Shown here piece after piece: positions 13,087 through 55,832 of a DNA stretch of 64,000 nt. The translations under genes and the position numbers were made by a program. Below the pieces are notes generated by a model, which worked only from the letters and a program-made list of their open reading frames with translations, had not been told where the DNA came from and did not search any database. The DNA lies in contig MCFL01000018.1 in assembly GCA_002102555.1 (NCBI GenBank), positions 406,700-470,699 on the forward strand, read 5' to 3'. Each line of letters opens with the position of its first letter. Positions within the stretch are counted from its first letter, which is position 1. The DNA is from Catenaria anguillulae PL171 (lineage: Eukaryota > Blastocladiomycota > Blastocladiomycetes > Blastocladiales > Catenariaceae).

Positions 13087-15017
13087 ATGTTCTCAGAAAT
13101 ACAAAAGACGTTGTACTCCCCGCTGCCCCTGGCTCCCACTCTTGCAGTGTATCCCAGCGACAGAACCAAAGCCTCGTTATCATGTATGATCGACTCTCAA
13201 CTCGTAAACACTCCATGTATCCCCACCCGCGCTGACTTCACGCCCACCGACTCGCTGTTCCCAGGCCATTCTGCACGTCCGACCCGACCAAATTCCTCCT
13301 CGACGGCGACACGCTGACGCCCGAAAACCTTGTCCTGCTGTCTCACGGCAAGCACAAGCTGGACCTGGCTCCGGAAGCCTGGGCCCGCATCCACGAGTCG
13401 CGCGCTTTGGTCGACAAGCTGGCCACCTGCGGCAAGCCCATCTACGGCATCTCGACCGGATTCGGCAACTTTGCGACCGTTGTCATTCCCGATGAGCAGC
13501 TCGCTCAGCTCCAGGTCAACCTTATCGTCTCACACTCTGCCGGTGTCGGCGCTCCGCTGTCTGTTCCGCGCACGCGCATGCTGCTCGTGCTTCGCATCAA
13601 TGTGCTCGCTAAGGGGTTCTCGGGCATTAGTCCCGAGACGGTCCAGCGCATGTTGGCTGCGTTCAATGCCGGCTGTCTGAGTTATGTCCCCGAGCAAGGG
13701 ACTGTTGGCGCTTCCGGCGATTTGGCACCCTTGTCGCATTTGGCCCTCGGGTACATTTAACCGTTCCCTACTCGATCGCCAGCTTCATATTCTGACGTCT
13801 CTTTTCGTGTCCAGAATGATGGGCATGGGCAAGATGTACGACCCAACCCTCAAAGCCTTTGACGACGCCGCTGCCGTCCTCAAGCGCCACAACCTGACGC
13901 CCATTACGCCAGGCGCCAAGGAAGGTCTTGCCATGATCAACGGGACACAATTCATGACGTCACTTGGTGCCGAGGCGCTTGTCCGCGCCGACATGCTCGT
14001 CAAGCTGGCGGATGTCATTGGTGCGCTTTCGCTCGAGGCGCTTCAAGGAACGCCCAGGGCGTTTGATCCAAAGATTCACGCTGCACGGCCGCATCCGGGA
14101 CAAGTGTCGTCGGCCGAGCGGTTGCGCATGTTGTTGCATCGGGATGGCGAGAATGAGTCGGAGATTTTTGCTTCGCACGAGAATTGCCATCGGGTCCAGG
14201 ATTCCTACACGCTGCGCTGCATGCCTCAGGTATGCTTCGCGTTCCACATCCTGCAAAGTCTGCTCCCGCCAGTCATCTCAACCTGATTTCTACTGCTCGC
14301 ACTTAGGTTCACGGCGCTTCTGGCGAAACCCTGCGCATGGTGCGCCCCGTTGTTGAAACCGAAATGAACTCTGCGACCGACAACCCAATGATCTTTTCGG
14401 AAACGGGCGAGTCGCGCAGCTGCGGTAACTTCCACGGCGAAATCATTGCCAAGTTTCTCGACTACCTGTGTATTGGCGTGCACGAGCTCGCGTCCATCTC
14501 GGAGCGTCGCATTGAGCGCCTCATCAACCCGACGCTTTCTGGCCTCCCCGCTTTCCTTGTGGAAAAGGGCGGACTCAACTCTGGGTTCATGATTGCGCAT
14601 TGTACCGCTGCCGCGCTCGTCTCTGAAAACAAGCAAATGTGCATGCCCGCGAGCGTGGACTCGATCCCAACGAGTGCCGGCAAGGAAGACCACGTGTCGA
14701 TGGGCGGATGGTCGGCGCGCAAGTGCTTGCGCGTGGTGGAAAATGTCGAAAAGGTGTTGGCCATTGAGCTGCTTGCCGCGTGCCAGGCGCTCGAGTTTCA
14801 TCGCCCTTTGAAGACGACCAAGCCGCTCGAGGATGTGCTTGCACTTGTCAGGAGCGTGGTGCCGCATTACGACCAGGACAGGTTCATGAGCCCTGATATT
14901 GAGGCCGTGCATCGGTTGGTCAAGAGCGGCCAGGTGTGGAATGTGGTTGCTGAGCATTTGGGCGAGCCAAAGGCGTTGGAGGAGGTGCATGGTTGGTTGA
15001 GGGAGCGCCAAGATTAA
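13087..15017 (+). CDS. HAL: histidine ammonia-lyase (5' exon tentative)
   Basis: Deaminates L-histidine to trans-urocanate and ammonia, the first step of histidine degradation. Secure exons are 13265-13750, 13815-14229 and 14307-15017, in consistent phase. Motifs seen are [21 protein letters not shown] with the catalytic Tyr, and [18 protein letters not shown]. Its Ala-Ser-Gly cyclises to the MIO electrophile, which marks this as a HAL/PAL enzyme. Later motifs are [28 protein letters not shown] and SGNFHG written here as SCGNFHGE. The histidine-type QDSYTLRC and the lack of plant PAL features favour HAL over PAL. A first exon at 13087-13183 followed by an 81-nt intron would supply the N-terminus but needs one extra base, so the start is uncertain. 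Formimidoylglutamase of the same pathway follows tail to tail. Confidence 0.92.
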
Positions 15018-15278
15018 GAAACAATGTTGTGCTTGTCACTTTTCGATCCTGTGCTGGGATCGCTTGCCCCATACCTATTGTGCGGACTCGTGTAGCTTTT
15101 CTCTCCTATATACAGTGCACTGACTCACGAAACATACACTTTGATTTTTTGGGTTCCTTTTTCATTGACCGCATGAGCTCCCACAAACTGCTGTTCCTGC
15201 CGCTCCCAAGAGCAATTTATTGACGACGCACTATCGCAAAACACATGAATTGATCCTGCAAGAACCTCAAACAGCACC

Positions 15279-16525
15279 TCAGGTAGAAAACTTTGCCGGT
15301 CGCCGGGCAAGTCCAAGGCAAAAGTAGTAAAACATGAAAGCAACCAACCTGCCCGTGCGATACTCTTCGATGGTGGGGTTGAACTCGCTCAAATCGAACA
15401 GCTTGACCTAAACATGCAACGCAACCGTGAGTGAGTGAGCTCAGCAAGCTGCAATTCAAATCATTTTCAAAGGCAACATACCGCCGGATGCGACCCTGCC
15501 ACATAACAAATATCCAACGCCATCTGCGCTGACAGCCCAAGCGGACTGGCGCACGACACACCCGGTGCATCTGCGCTCCTAACGGCATCCAAATCAAACG
15601 ACACAAACACCACTCCATCTTGTCCCTCTTCGCCCCTGCGCTTTGCCCCTGTATCCAGCCGCGCACGAAACGCGCGCGCAAACTCGGACTCGCCCGGACG
15701 CCCGCCGTCGGGCGCCGCAAGGCCCGCAATGTCGCTGAGCCACACGAGCTCGGTGGATGCGTGCGGAAACGTGCGCAGGAACTGAATGTGCGCGGCCGAG
15801 CATTGCGAGCCCTGGATGGCAAACTCGCAAAAGTGGCCGTGGCGCGTCTGGAAGGCCGAATCTTGGAGAAGCTGGCGGAAGGGCGAGCCGGAATGCGCTT
15901 GGCCTGCCGGTGTCAGCGGGCGGACGTCGAGGTGGGCGTCAATATTGATGACGGCCACACGAGTCGAGGCAGGCAAAGTCGCGAGGAGGCCGGTGGCGTT
16001 CGGGTACGACTGGTTGTTGCCGCCGCCAATGACAAATGGGACAAATCCGTGCGTAATCACTTGGCGGACGTGATCCTTCAGTTGCTCGTGTGCCTGTTCA
16101 AGCGACTGCGTCTTGCGACACGCCGCCATGCCCGTGGTCACGGCTTGAATCGACTGGCGCAGGTCAATGTCAAACTCTGGGTTGAAAATGGTTCCGACCT
16201 TGGCAATGTACTTGAGTGCCGCCTCGGGGCCGGCCGCGGCACCAATTCGGCCACCGTTGCGTGCCACGCCCTAAAAGATACCTCGACAATACATGAGTGA
16301 AGGGCTGCCGGCAGAAAGCACGCATTGTGGGCGTACCTCATCATCTGGAAATCCGACAATGCAGACTCGGCGATGGGCGGCGTCCGGGTTGGGCAGCTGG
16401 TCCAACAGCTTGAGAGCGTCTGGGTTGGCGACCTTGATGAGCATGTGGCCCATGCGTGGGTCGTCGGATCCGTACGACGCAAAATCGATCGGGTCGTTGG
16501 CAGCGGGTGCAGTAGAGCTAGACAT
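15279..16525 (-). CDS. hutG: formimidoylglutamase, arginase-family (HutG-like)
   Basis: Hydrolyses N-formimino-L-glutamate to glutamate and formamide, the last step of histidine breakdown. Three exons (16525-16337, 16270-15482, 15407-15279) total 1107 nt, giving 368 residues, with no breaks. Ureohydrolase motifs are GVARNGGRIGA, FVIGGGNNQSYPN, VINIDAHLDVRP (DAHxD, manganese ligands), SFDLDAVRSADAPGVS (DxD ligands) and the C-terminal DLSEFNPTIEEYRTGRL. The first motif has Asn where arginases have the GGxH manganese-A ligand. I recall the same His-to-Asn change in the studied Trypanosoma cruzi formiminoglutamase, which supports this substrate rather than arginine. The gene converges on HAL with about 260 bp between stop codons. 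Confidence 0.88.
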
Positions 16526-25502: not shown

Positions 25503-28200
25503 ATGAGCCCACCACCTGCCATCTCATCCGCCGCCGCTACGACCGCCACTTCTTCGTCGGTCGTGGTGGTTCCACAAGACCCACAAACCACCCCGATACC
25601 GCGTCCACAGCACCCTTTCGAGTATGTCCGCACCTTGCGTTCCCATCCCTCGTACACCCACATGATATCCGCTCAAACATGTCAATAAATATACACTAGC
25701 CCGAGCGCTGACGACGACCCGCACTCGGTTCCGACCCGTCCGCTCCATTCAACCGAAGCGCCCGAAGACCTCCGCCTGCTGTATGGCCAAGCCAACGAGT
25801 TCAAGGAGGGCGATGAAGCCTTGGGCGTTTCGGCACCCACCCCCGCGCACCGTCTCGCAGCACGCTTGCAACTGTCCACCTTCCGACTGGGCGACATTTC
25901 GCCCGCTCGCTTTGACGCTCCAGCCGATTCGGACCCGTCTCGTCATTCATCGAATCGGGTATTGACCCGGTCGTCGCATCGCGAATCGCACATTGGACGC
26001 TTGGCGACCTGCGCGTCTTTCTGCTTGAGGAACCCAATGAGGCTCGGATTCGTGAAATTATGCCTGGGTTGAGGAGCGAGGTGATTGCCGGTGTAGTCAA
26101 GCTCATGTCCAACGAGGAGCTCATCAAGGTGGCAAGTAAGATTTGGAATCCCGTAGCCAAAGGTCGGTCCCTGGGAACTCGTGGTGTGTTTGCGAGCCGC
26201 ATTCAGCCCAATAGTGCGACAGACGATCCCGAGGAGGTGCTTATGAGTATCTTGGAGGGATTGAGCTATGGATGTGGCGATGCAATCTTTGGTGCGTAGC
26301 ATGCAGAGAACAACTCGGATCCAAGGCTAGTTTTCTCACATCTCGTCTGTTCCCAGGCATCAATATTGTTGCGTCCGACTTGCCCAACGTTGCCACGCTC
26401 GAGTCCATCCTCCTCGACGTGATCCAAACATTCAAACTCGAGTCCGCCACCCGCCACTGTGTGCTCGCCCACATTGAGGAACAAATGGCGGTCCACGCCA
26501 ACCGCCACCTTCCTTTGCCCCCTCTCCTCCTCTTCCACACCGGCGCGCAAACCGCCCACACTGTATTGTCGTCCACGCCCGGCTCCTCACTCGTCCGCGT
26601 CGCGTTCCAATCCATTGGCGGGACCACCGCCGTCAACCGGGTGTTTGGCGTGACGGTCGACTCGCTTCTGGCGCACGCGCGGTCCATTCCCGTGTCCTCG
26701 ACCACTGGCCTGTACTTTGAAACTGGGCAAGGGTCTGCCGTGACCAACAACGCGGCACACGGCATCGACATGGTGACGTGCGAGTCGCGCGCACACGGGC
26801 TCGCGCGCGCCCTGCGCCGTGCCACTGGCCACTGGTGCATTGTCAACACGGTTGCGGGCTTTATTGGGCCCGAAGTGTTCAAGACGCGCGCCCAGCTGGT
26901 GCGTGCGTGCCTCGAGGACGTGACCATGGGCAAGTTGCATGGGCTCACCTTTGGCTTGGATATCTGTAGCACGTATCATATGGGGTGCACGCTGGACGAT
27001 ATGCAGCAGGTCCAGGATGAGGTGTTGAGGGCCGGGCCGGGGTTTTACATGAGTGTGGCAGGGCGGAATGATCCAATGCTGTCGTACATTACGACCGGAT
27101 TCAGGGATCATCCGCGGCTCAGGGAGACGTTTGGGGTGCGCGGGACGGACGAGATGCGTGGATTCTTTGCGGACGAGTTGGGCGTCATGGATGCCGAGGG
27201 AAGAATGACGAGCAGGGCTGGGGATACTGAATGGGTCTATGTGCAGTACCGGAAGCGAAAGGGAGACCAGCGGAGCGAAGACGAGTTGAGAGCAGAGGCC
27301 AGGACCATTTTGGCCAAGCTGCAGGCCCGTGGGATGGACCTGGGGTACGGCCACGATGGGGCATTCGGCCCGCCCGCAGAGGTCAAGGAGCGGTTGCAGG
27401 CCATTTACGAGGATGCAAAGCGGGCAGTCAGGTTGGAGCTCGATGTGGATCGCGTGCATCGGTCAATGCGAGCACAGTCAGCGAGGGAGCCTGAAGTTAT
27501 TGCGCTCGAGACGACGGCGCACAGCCGAGACGAGTACTTGGCCAAGCCCACCACGGGCGAATCACTTGCCCCGCATTCACTGGCTGCCCTTCGCGACGTT
27601 TCCCGACGCGGTGCCGTCCCATCCACACAGGGTCTGTCCCGGCCGCCGCCTGCACGTGCCGTGATTATTCTTGGGGACGGCCTCAACGCCGACGCCGTGC
27701 ACGAATCGGGCGCCGACCTCGTAGCTGCGATCCAATCTGCCTGTGCACAACAAGACATCGACGTTCATCCAACCACACTGCTCGTGCGCAACGCCCGAGT
27801 CCGTGTCGGGTACCAGATTGGGCACGAGCTGTTTGCGCAACGTGCGACCGACGACAACGTTGTGCTAAGTCCTGACCAGCTTGGGATCGTGTTTCTGATT
27901 GTGGGCGAGCGACCTGGCAATGGGAACAATACCATGAGCGTGTACCAAGTCGCGGCGGGTGCGGACAAGTGGGCCAGTGGCCGCGTGGATCATTGTGATG
28001 CACGCGTCGTTTCGGGCATTTCGAACCGAGCATTGCGGCCGCTCGAGGCGGCACAAGAGTGTCTCAAGTTTGTCGAGGAAGCCTTGGTGATGGCCGCAGT
28101 TGAAAAGGGAAAGACGGGCGGTGGGAGTGTTGGAGGGATTGAGGTGCCAACCTCAAGAGTGGGCGACGAGACCAAGGACCAGCGATCAAATGCTGTTTGA
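25503..28200 (+). CDS. eutBC: ethanolamine ammonia-lyase, EutB-EutC fusion
   Basis: Adenosylcobalamin-type lyase converting ethanolamine to acetaldehyde and ammonia; bacteria encode its large and small subunits separately. Exons 25503-25621, 25700-26291 and 26357-28200 give 851 residues once a missing C near 25937 is allowed. After 40 low-complexity residues, the EutB part (about 60-610) shows ANEFKEGDEALG, AARLQLSTFRLGDIS, LSYGCGDAIFGIN, FQSIGGTTAVNRVFGV, YFETGQGSA (catalytic-Glu motif), NTVAGFIGPEVF and GLDICSTYHM. A linker leads into the EutC part (about 625-825), with VIILGDGLNADAVH and GIVFLIVGERPG, the cobalamin-side motif. It is continuous in one exon across the junction, so the fusion is real in this sequence. 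No reactivase (EutA) or microcompartment genes are visible nearby. Typical fungal introns argue against bacterial contamination. Confidence 0.92.
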
Positions 28201-52935: not shown

Positions 52936-53479
52936 ATGGAATCATTGGTATCATCATCATGCGCGCAAACCGAGAAAACATGCACACGAGCGCGCACGTT
53001 TGTCGTTCGTCCCGTGCCATCCCCGCGCCAAACCAATCCAAACCAACTTTAACGCAAGCGCCCCAACTTTGTGATCTCACAAGGTCTGGCAAGTCTGTGG
53101 ACTGACCGCCCGCCAGACCGGCACCGCTGGCCTCTTATTACGGCGCAAGCATCCTCGCTCCACTCTGGCTGACTGGTCCTCTGCTGACTCTGCTCCAATC
53201 GCCCTCGTCAATCATTAGTGCCCTCGGGAATCAACATAGGCGGATATCAGATGTATGTACGTCCGTGTACCCCTAGCTCCCATACCACGCACTTGAAGCC
53301 GATCACTCGCTCGCTCGCTCCCGCACACCAGTCTTCCGATTCCAATTCGCCGCCGCAAGCGGCCAACGCTTGCCTGATCGTGAGCTCATGATCCGTGCTA
53401 GAGTCAAGTGCAGAGTGCAGAGTGCAGACAGCTGATTGATCGAGCAATTGCTTTTCGTCCAGCAAAGACCAGCAGCACA
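52936..53479. other. intergenic
   Basis: No recognisable gene; upstream flank and leader of the hydrolase gene. CTCG repeats occur near 53307. Confidence 0.4.
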
Positions 53480-55832
53480 ATGACCGCCGCCAACAGCAGC
53501 AACCACGCCGACCACAACTTGCACTTCCAATCGGACATGCGCGCCGCGCCGGCCATTGCCACGCCGCCCGACTCGCCCGACATTGCGCCACTCGACCCCA
53601 TGCTGCGCCATCCCGTCTCGGACTCGGACTTGGACGCAGTGCACGTCGACGCGTACTCGCTTGGCAGGGATCAAGGGTCTCTTGCAAGCGGCAGCATGAT
53701 GATGCCTATGCCGATTCCTCCCAGTGTCTCCAAGGCCAACATGCTCAAGGAGCGGCAGCATCACCCGCAGCATCCCAAGAGCAAGCATGATGCATACGAC
53801 TCGGGCACCATCTCTGACTCACCACCGTCGACAAGTCCAACACGTCACGACCGTGGCCAAGACGCGAATGCGATTGCACCGGCTGCCGACTACCTTGGCC
53901 GCCAGCCGTCGCCTTCCCAGGCAAACCTCGACCCGACACGCTCCACGACCACATTATTCCACAAGCCCGCTCCTGCTAGTGCTGCCGCCACCGACTCGCT
54001 CGCCGACATTGAACGTTTCATCGAACTCTCGCGCCTTGCTCTACAAATCCCTGGCCTGACCATCTCAGTCTCACACAATACCCGTCCGATCATGCACCGC
54101 GCCTTTGGCTCCCTCTCTGCGGCGTCGCCTTCCCAACTCATGTCCACCTCCACCTTGACCGACCTGTGCTCGCTCACAAAGGCATTCACGTCGGCCGCCG
54201 CCGCCAAACTCGTCCACCAAGGCAGACTCGACTGGCAAATGCCCATCACGCACTACGTGCCCGACTTGGCCTTTTCCGACCCGCTCGCCTCATCCGCCAT
54301 CACCATGCTCGACCTGCTATCGCATCGGACCGGCTTGGCCGCACACGACGAGTTGTGGACTGGGTCCTCGCGCGCGTTACGTGCTGGTGGGGATCTCATC
54401 GATATTGTTCCGTGGCTCGAGTTTGGAGGTCACTTTCGCGCCAGCTATATTTTCTCGCACGTCGGGTATGCCATTGCCACACTCGTCATTGAGCGAGTCG
54501 CGGGCGAGCCGTTTGAAGCCTATGTGACGAGGGAATTGTTGGCACCACTGGGCATGACGGGCGTACGGTGGCGGTATCCAGGGGCAAAGCGAAAGGTTGT
54601 GGACAATGATGGCGCAATTGCCCGGCCCCACCAGTGCGTTTGGCTCAAAGACCCCAATGCCATGCACGCGTTTCGTGCAGATGTGGTGGCGGATTTGCAC
54701 CAGTTTGTGGACGATGTGCACCCGGACAAGGTCACGGACGGGCTTGCGCATGCCGCAGAGTACTCGGTCCCAGTGCACGAGACGCTTGCGTATGCAGAGA
54801 CCAATCGATACATGGCGGGTGCTGCGGGCGTCATGTACGCATCGGCCGACGACGTCGCAAAATGGGCAGCGTGCTGGTTGAATGGCGGGTTGGCGCCCGA
54901 TGGCAAGACACAGGTGTTGCATGAGATGAGTGTATTGACTCGGGTCCACAATTCGTCCGACCTGTACGAAAGTGAGGCAGAGGCCAGGCGTGGGATGCGC
55001 GTGATTGGGTATGCGTGTGGGTGGGAAGTCAACCAATTTGGGTCCGTCCGCTTTCTTTGGTTTGTGCCCATCAACTGGCAACGTGTCTTGTCTCACACTT
55101 GGGAACATTTGTACTGTTTTTAGTGACCACGAACTTCTCATGCACACTGGCGGCTCGCCCGGCTACGCCACCTTGCTCGCCTTGGTCCCAGGTGCCAACC
55201 TAAGCATCTACATTGCCGAAAACCAATCTTTCACGTCTCTTTCAAGCATCCTTCTCCCGCTCCTCCTCCACACGCTCATCCCACCATCCACCAAATCCAA
55301 ATCAATCCGCCCATTCACACTTGCCGACGCATGCGCGGCGCTGCCGCGCGTCAAACTCAACATGATTCTCGCGCACGCCAAAGCACACTTGTCCGTAGCC
55401 CCAACGCCCGCGGCCGATCCGGCAGTGCTTGATGACGCCTCGGAGCTTGTGCTGGGTATGGACCAACACACGCTTTCGGCCGTTGCAGGCGTGTACAAGC
55501 ACGACGCGTACGGGTATGTGACGATTGCCCTGGACACGCCGGCGGCGGCACACACAAACGCACAAGGGCTACGCCTGATTCGCGCGCCCGATGTCAACAC
55601 GCGCATGTACCCTGCGCGTGCGCTCGAGGAGCCAGGATGTCTGACCTTGTTTACGTACCCGGCACACACGCTGTATTGGTTTCGCAAGGTCAGGGAGAGC
55701 GGTGAGGATCGCTATGTGAGGCAGGCGAGGCGCGGGTTTGTGGACGGCGACGACGAGGAGCATGATAGGTTTGAGCTCGTGATGCGTGAAGAATCGACTT
55801 ATGTCGAAGTGGTGTTTACGCGAGTCGATTGA
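53480..55832 (+). CDS. serine beta-lactamase-fold (class C/S12) hydrolase
   Basis: Related to beta-lactamases, D-Ala-D-Ala peptidases, LACTB and fungal esterases of the same fold. Exons 53480-55041 and 55124-55832 give 756 residues, no breaks. The first 170 residues are disordered (Ser/Pro/His/Asp). The fold starts at about IERFIELSRLALQIPGLTIS. The SxxK motif is in LCSLTKAFTSAAAAKLV (nucleophile Ser and Lys). GLAPLGMTGVRW-like ELLAPLGMTG and the third motif HTGGSPGY (HTG for KTG) are present. The second motif, normally Y-S/A-N, reads F-S-H in YIFSHVGYAIA, so the usual base Tyr is Phe. A C-terminal 220-residue domain is of the type seen in peptide-hydrolase relatives. No signal peptide, so probably cytosolic. 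Activity may be altered or absent. Confidence 0.85.

Follow-up and report, generated by a model that had tools for sequence, protein, structure and literature searches.

A predicted single-chain ethanolamine ammonia-lyase, likely inherited ready-fused from bacteria, in Catenaria anguillulae and other zoosporic fungi

Can an early-diverging fungus carry both subunits of the cobalamin-dependent ethanolamine ammonia-lyase in one protein, and where did such a fusion arise? The question is raised by a plus-strand gene of the Blastocladiomycete Catenaria anguillulae PL171, located in a stretch of DNA (the window) that comprises the final 64,000 bases of the 470,699-base contig MCFL01000018.1 in a genome of 41.07 Mb. 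An original prediction, made from the letters of the window, had seen the subunits EutB and EutC fused in this gene. Read across a frame change, the gene encodes a single polypeptide with the EutB barrel followed by EutC. We are fairly confident that this product is a single-chain adenosylcobalamin-dependent ethanolamine ammonia-lyase, likely cytosolic, and that an early zoosporic fungus acquired the fusion from bacteria.

The 851-residue reading matched EutB (PF06751, 6.2e-128, 427.8 bits, above the Pfam gathering score of 25) and EutC (PF05985, 3.7e-29, 102.2 bits, above the gathering score of 25.8), confirming that homology to both subunits lies in one plus-strand transcription unit. Exon 3 is open over 613 codons, compared with a longest run of 267 in 500 single-base shuffles, and the two upstream introns with GT..AG ends that had been proposed were recovered (Table 1). 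The motifs were placed as claimed in part: YFETGQGSA, VIILGDGLN, and IVGERPG share one frame of exon 3, whereas ANEFKEGDEALG precedes intron 2, within exon 2. Likewise, the 851-residue product does arise by joining 119 and 732 residues, but the frame change in exon 2 had been overlooked.

In the residue test for ethanolamine ammonia-lyase (EC 4.3.1.7), EutB R160, Q162, N193, E287, and D362, which we take to be functional positions of the enzyme, were all present. The eight EutB positions examined on the substrate and corrin sides were all retained, as in the structures of Escherichia coli EutB/EutC (PDB 3abo) and Listeria EutB (2qez), which share both folds, and the substrate-side residues did not vary in any of 109 rows. 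For E287, a key role is described in PMC4413051. The AlphaFold model of the Blastocladiella emersonii orthologue is confident apart from its low-confidence terminal tails, and its two parts, each compared separately, match the EutB and EutC crystal structures. Foldseek ranked EutB above the diol and glycerol dehydratases, and the matches ranked below all of these were other barrel enzymes. No targeting signal was visible by eye in the fungal tails, and the exon 1 extension, also judged by eye, has almost no positive charge, unlike a mitochondrial presequence. While the E. coli enzyme consists of two chains, that of Catenaria is one chain, in which a conserved linker replaces most of the EutC N-terminus (relative to 5ysn_B, the EutC match starts at residue 97).

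The coding frame is broken within exon 2: up to about 25937 the EutB homology follows one frame, and beyond that point another. If followed further, the first frame contains many stops. The NCBI model (P0001, 827 aa) crosses the frame change via a third intron that swaps 31 residues for 7, and the block that it cuts out is retained in the other nine of the ten rows of alignment A1. All frame-restoring GT..AG pairs in the scanned ranges (six and two) excise EutB-like coding sequence; therefore, rescue by an intron was dropped in favor of a one-base indel. Since the block is kept in nine of ten rows, a one-base error in the draft assembly is the simplest reading. A sequencing or assembly error is the most likely cause of the frame change in PL171, a recent lesion of the strain being a less likely one. 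The wider finding is untouched by it, since the database versions of the orthologues read through.

Table 1. Features of the fused gene, in window positions.
Feature	Position	Strand	Remarks
Fused EutB-EutC gene, start to stop codon	25503..28200	+	3 exons; same gene as NCBI protein P0001
Exon 1	25503..25621	+	N-terminal extension of low complexity
Intron 1	25622..25699	+	78 nt, GTATGT...CTAG; read from sequence
Exon 2	25700..26291	+	N-terminal third of EutB; one-base frame change near 25937
EutB domain	25764..27228	+	Residues ~62-528 of the 851-residue reading
Frame-change site	25930..25945	+	Blastocladiella emersonii aligns across without a gap
71-nt stretch	25959..26029	+	GTATTG...CTTGAG; third intron in P0001, most likely coding
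Intron 2	26292..26356	+	65 nt, GTGCGT...CCAG; read from sequence
Exon 3	26357..28200	+	Remaining EutB, linker, EutC, and C-terminal tail
Conserved inter-domain linker	27229..27384	+	Residues ~529-580; computed from domain borders
EutC domain	27385..28089	+	Residues 581-815 of the 851-residue reading

Eight named fungi have both domains in one chain, and the PL171 gene has orthologues in Gonapodya as well as in six Blastocladiomycota besides Catenaria. These orthologues, the two introns, and the 470,699-base contig bear out the view that this is a genuine gene of an early-diverging fungus rather than contamination. The flanking genes are ordinary cellular ones, as had been stated: six of the ten open reading frames (ORFs) run exceeded a Pfam cut-off (aromatic amino-acid lyase, arginase family, helicase, amino-acid transporter, class II aldolase, and beta-lactamase fold), one had a CH-domain match below its cut-off, and three had none. 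Among the best 120 of 2935 matches, EukProt-labelled rows came only from Allomyces macrogynus and Gonapodya.

The assumption that the bacterial subunits are separate genes was not supported. Bacterial and archaeal genomes were scanned, the best 80 of 595 loci were kept, and fusion was judged by ORF reading. In 31 of the 80 loci a single frame spans both domains (L005-L032, L035, L036, and L059; L028 leaves its contig inside EutC), in two (L033 and L034) the contig stops before EutC is reached, and 47 have separate genes or a lone EutB. Locus L067, with a 774-residue ORF, was counted as not fused because its match spans EutB only. The hosts of the fused genes belong to Myxococcota, Planctomycetota, Bacteroidota, Thermodesulfobacteriota, Gemmatimonadota, Acidobacteriota, and Pseudomonadota (including Rhizobiales). 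Bacterial named rows, among the matches listed, were 38-42% identical to the window protein; they show the same fusion, in one uninterrupted frame, whereas the fungal form has longer low-complexity ends.

Full-length EutA was found in 1 of the 31 genomes with a fused gene compared with 8 of 15 sampled genomes without the fusion, all of unstated completeness. Partial matches occurred in many genomes (E ~2e-9 to 9e-4) and spanned roughly 40-150 of the 475 profile positions; we did not treat these as EutA. The sole fused-gene genome with a full-length EutA match (6.2e-71) is G015, the host of L019. The neighbors of 30 of the 31 fused loci (L028 omitted) were scanned at 93 of 154 ORFs, with the first 25 of 132 families visible, so that single partners may be hidden. 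Within this scope there was no recurrent eut partner, no family matched more than four of the 93 neighbors, and EutH matched one. Therefore, the bacterial neighbors do not tell the substrate.

Of the 31 fused loci, 24 entered the 68-row tree, together with 14 of the 47 others as concatenates, and the 40-row tree with bootstraps comprised 11 fused loci and three others; P0021 (529 aa), which lacks the EutC domain, was left out. A single branch of the 68-row tree parts fused from separate-gene rows, with the fungi inside the fused side, which received 100/100 in the 40-row tree. Provided that the frame change is crossed, the window protein lies inside this fused clade. The fungi and four metagenomic rows form one clade (95/86, 40-row tree), the bacterial fused proteins lie on a separate sub-branch of the same fused clade (100/100), and the Gonapodya branch is long (1.06). 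Nine further metagenomic rows (P0009, P0010, P0012-P0016, P0018, and P0022) cluster together (84/82) and are nearest to the fungi by path; they join the fungal clade in the 68-row tree (SH-aLRT 92), while this fork is open in the 40-row tree. Six of the nine (P0009, P0010, P0012, P0013, P0015, and P0016) have hydrophobic, secretion-signal-like N-termini, with a best 12-residue mean of 1.8-3.3, and the mean was at most 1.3 in the five fungal rows examined. Secretion, or a periplasmic location, would be odd for a B12 lyase. A deep, divergent fused group of about 707 residues (L029, L030, and L035) is basal within the fused clade.

An origin of the fusion within the fungal lineage, as originally supposed, was rejected in view of the bacterial fused genes and the nesting of the fungi in one fused clade. 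Bacteria are the likely source of the fusion, the trees leaving the exact sister lineage open. The subunits would have fused a single time, in bacteria, an early zoosporic fungus would have taken up the gene already fused, and the introns would have been gained after uptake.

The adenosyltransferase search proposed along with the prediction returned two PF01923 matches in the Catenaria genome, which also contained methylmalonyl-CoA mutase, MeaB, MetH, and a weak MMACHC match. Because adenosyltransferases, methylmalonyl-CoA mutase, MeaB, and MetH are present, a supply of adenosylcobalamin is expected after cobalamin uptake. No match was found in this genome for a EutA-like reactivase, which the same search detected in 5 of 14 control genomes, or for shell proteins (PF00936; 2 of 14 controls), the latter in line with the predicted lack of a microcompartment. 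The genome thus differs from the known eut system in having no shell, EutA, or EutH match, which agrees with the fused bacterial branch and its rarity of full-length EutA.

The two adenosyltransferase paralogues, L085 (G000:C1:98162-98849) and L087 (G000:C431:78605-79337), come from separate clades in a tree built on 38 of the best 120 proteins listed. Protein P0204 has 195 residues and no extension, P0264 has 239 residues, and the start codons of both Catenaria genes are ambiguous by eye. The short type groups with Allomyces and Blastocladiella and also with Rhizophagus-type and Mortierella-type fungi (99/95), and Gonapodya has only the other type among the matches listed. Mortierella and Rhizophagus are absent from the 120 listed EutBC matches. 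A second adenosyltransferase dedicated to EutBC was considered and rejected, since its clade includes these Rhizophagus-type and Mortierella-type fungi and the pairing is not specific.

Several observations weigh against a fungal ethanolamine ammonia-lyase of bacterial origin. NCBIfam profiles were run on the B. emersonii, A. macrogynus, Gonapodya, P0009, and P0064 proteins, and all three fungal proteins fell below both cut-offs: that of 554 bits for the EutB subfamily NF011649 (477.7, 446.5, and 475.3 bits, respectively; 530.4 for the metagenomic P0009) and that of 230 bits for the EutC equivalog NF003971 (83.4, 71.4, and 27.6 bits; 95.9 for P0009). The bacterial fused protein P0064 clears NF011649 (641.6 bits) but not NF003971 (80.3 bits). 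Identity to characterised EutB, including the E. coli and Listeria structures, is only 34-38%, and to known EutC structures 23-27%. In addition, the PL171 reading is interrupted by the one-base frame change, the second adenosyltransferase is not tied to EutBC, and no dedicated ethanolamine importer was found (EutH gave no match in Catenaria and matched in 2 of 14 controls; other transporter families were not searched). No donor can be named, as the nine rows nearest outside the fungal clade are metagenomic proteins without an assigned kingdom. The identity of the lyase is predicted from sequence and a structural model.

Because the three fungal proteins miss the NCBIfam cut-offs, these profiles do not certify an equivalent function, and the gene might encode a B12 lyase or dehydratase of the same fold acting on another amino alcohol or another main substrate. 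The fused clade is also distant from the separate-gene enzymes (1.2-1.5 changes per column on each side), and its bacterial members have no recurrent eut partner. However, the invariant substrate-side residues, the ranking of EutB above the diol and glycerol dehydratases by Foldseek, and the one EutH among the 93 scanned neighbors make such a substrate unlikely. As to origin, a fused enzyme of early eukaryotes that was lost in most of them would be compatible with the argument that B12 use is vertically inherited in early fungi (PMC8085122) and with the single clade of fungi and four metagenomic rows. We regard this ancient vertical inheritance as improbable, given that EukProt labels among the best matches were confined to Allomyces macrogynus and Gonapodya, with no other EukProt eukaryote near, and that the bacterial group L029, L030, and L035 branches before the fungi (fork 89/94 in the 40-row tree, rooted on separate-gene rows).

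The PL171 gene itself could be a fresh pseudogene, with a real frame change and no functional enzyme made, as the one-base change in exon 2 and the NCBI model, which bridges it only by excising a conserved block, would suggest. Yet the 851 codons of the reading contain no other stop, all eight EutB residues examined are kept, both introns have GT..AG ends, and third-position GC is similar on either side of the change (0.664 and 0.690). A single missing base is, moreover, common in draft assemblies, and we consider recent decay of the gene quite unlikely. Bacterial contamination of the assembly, which a bacterial protein family might evoke, is already refuted by the introns, the long Catenaria contig with its ordinary neighbors, and the orthologues in six other Blastocladiomycota, and its probability is negligible.

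The enzyme predicted here, a single-chain ethanolamine ammonia-lyase, would release acetaldehyde and ammonia from ethanolamine, the fungal cytosol being the likely site. As in the bacterial enzyme, adenosylcobalamin would be held between the barrel and the EutC domain; the substrate would react inside the barrel by the usual radical route. Activity would persist without EutA, as in Acinetobacter baumannii, where EutBC works without EutA and a metabolosome and provides nitrogen from ethanolamine (PMC9426561), although that enzyme has two subunits and belongs to the other deep clade (Acinetobacter sp. L063 is among the separate-gene rows). Ethanolamine might be derived from phospholipid turnover or taken up by general transporters, the ammonia could enter nitrogen assimilation, and the acetaldehyde could be handled by ordinary aldehyde dehydrogenases. 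Growth of the fungus on ethanolamine is plausible.

Two surveys and a review (PMC2667541, PMC8085122, PMC7435645) name three eukaryotic B12 enzymes, ethanolamine ammonia-lyase not being among them: methionine synthase, methylmalonyl-CoA mutase, and class II ribonucleotide reductase. In early-diverging fungi these are MetH, the mutase, and the class II reductase, the whole set being reported in Blastocladiomycota (PMC8085122), and they would have their cofactor supply in common with EutBC. The word ethanolamine is absent from the main text of PMC8085122 and from the accessible part of a survey of horizontal gene transfer in 44 early fungi (PMC11291939). A table in PMC7435645 places ethanolamine ammonia-lyase on the prokaryote side only, and eutBC was searched for by others in Tilletia genomes and not found (PMC9172201). 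In the accessible parts of the open-access literature, among the matches listed and with most subscription journals outside, we found no description of a fused EutBC or of EutBC in fungi. Some fused proteins are already called ethanolamine ammonia-lyase in NCBI and UniProt.

Elsewhere in the window, an aromatic amino-acid lyase gene (PF00221 on 14337-15014; likely a histidine ammonia-lyase) stands beside an arginase-family gene on the minus strand (15470-16267; formimidoylglutamase-like by eye). The region 13684-16267, about 9 kb from the ethanolamine gene, is a possible small histidine-breakdown pair. Additionally, 53408-55120 holds a beta-lactamase-fold, serine hydrolase-like ORF of 571 residues (PF00144).

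Taken together, we lean toward the view that zoosporic fungi run a fourth eukaryotic cobalamin chemistry, in which a single-chain, reactivase-free, and non-compartmentalised lyase, obtained ready-fused from a bacterial lineage, would draw nitrogen from phospholipid head groups wherever B12 is supplied by bacteria. If true, the fused lyase conserved in Blastocladiomycota and Gonapodya would be the fourth B12 enzyme of eukaryotes, and zoosporic fungi would be linked to a bacterial B12 supply for nitrogen. It would also offer a classic radical enzyme in single-chain form, for which subunit assembly is unnecessary. These results further point to a large bacterial EutBC branch that is mostly without EutA and lies outside eut operons in the loci examined.
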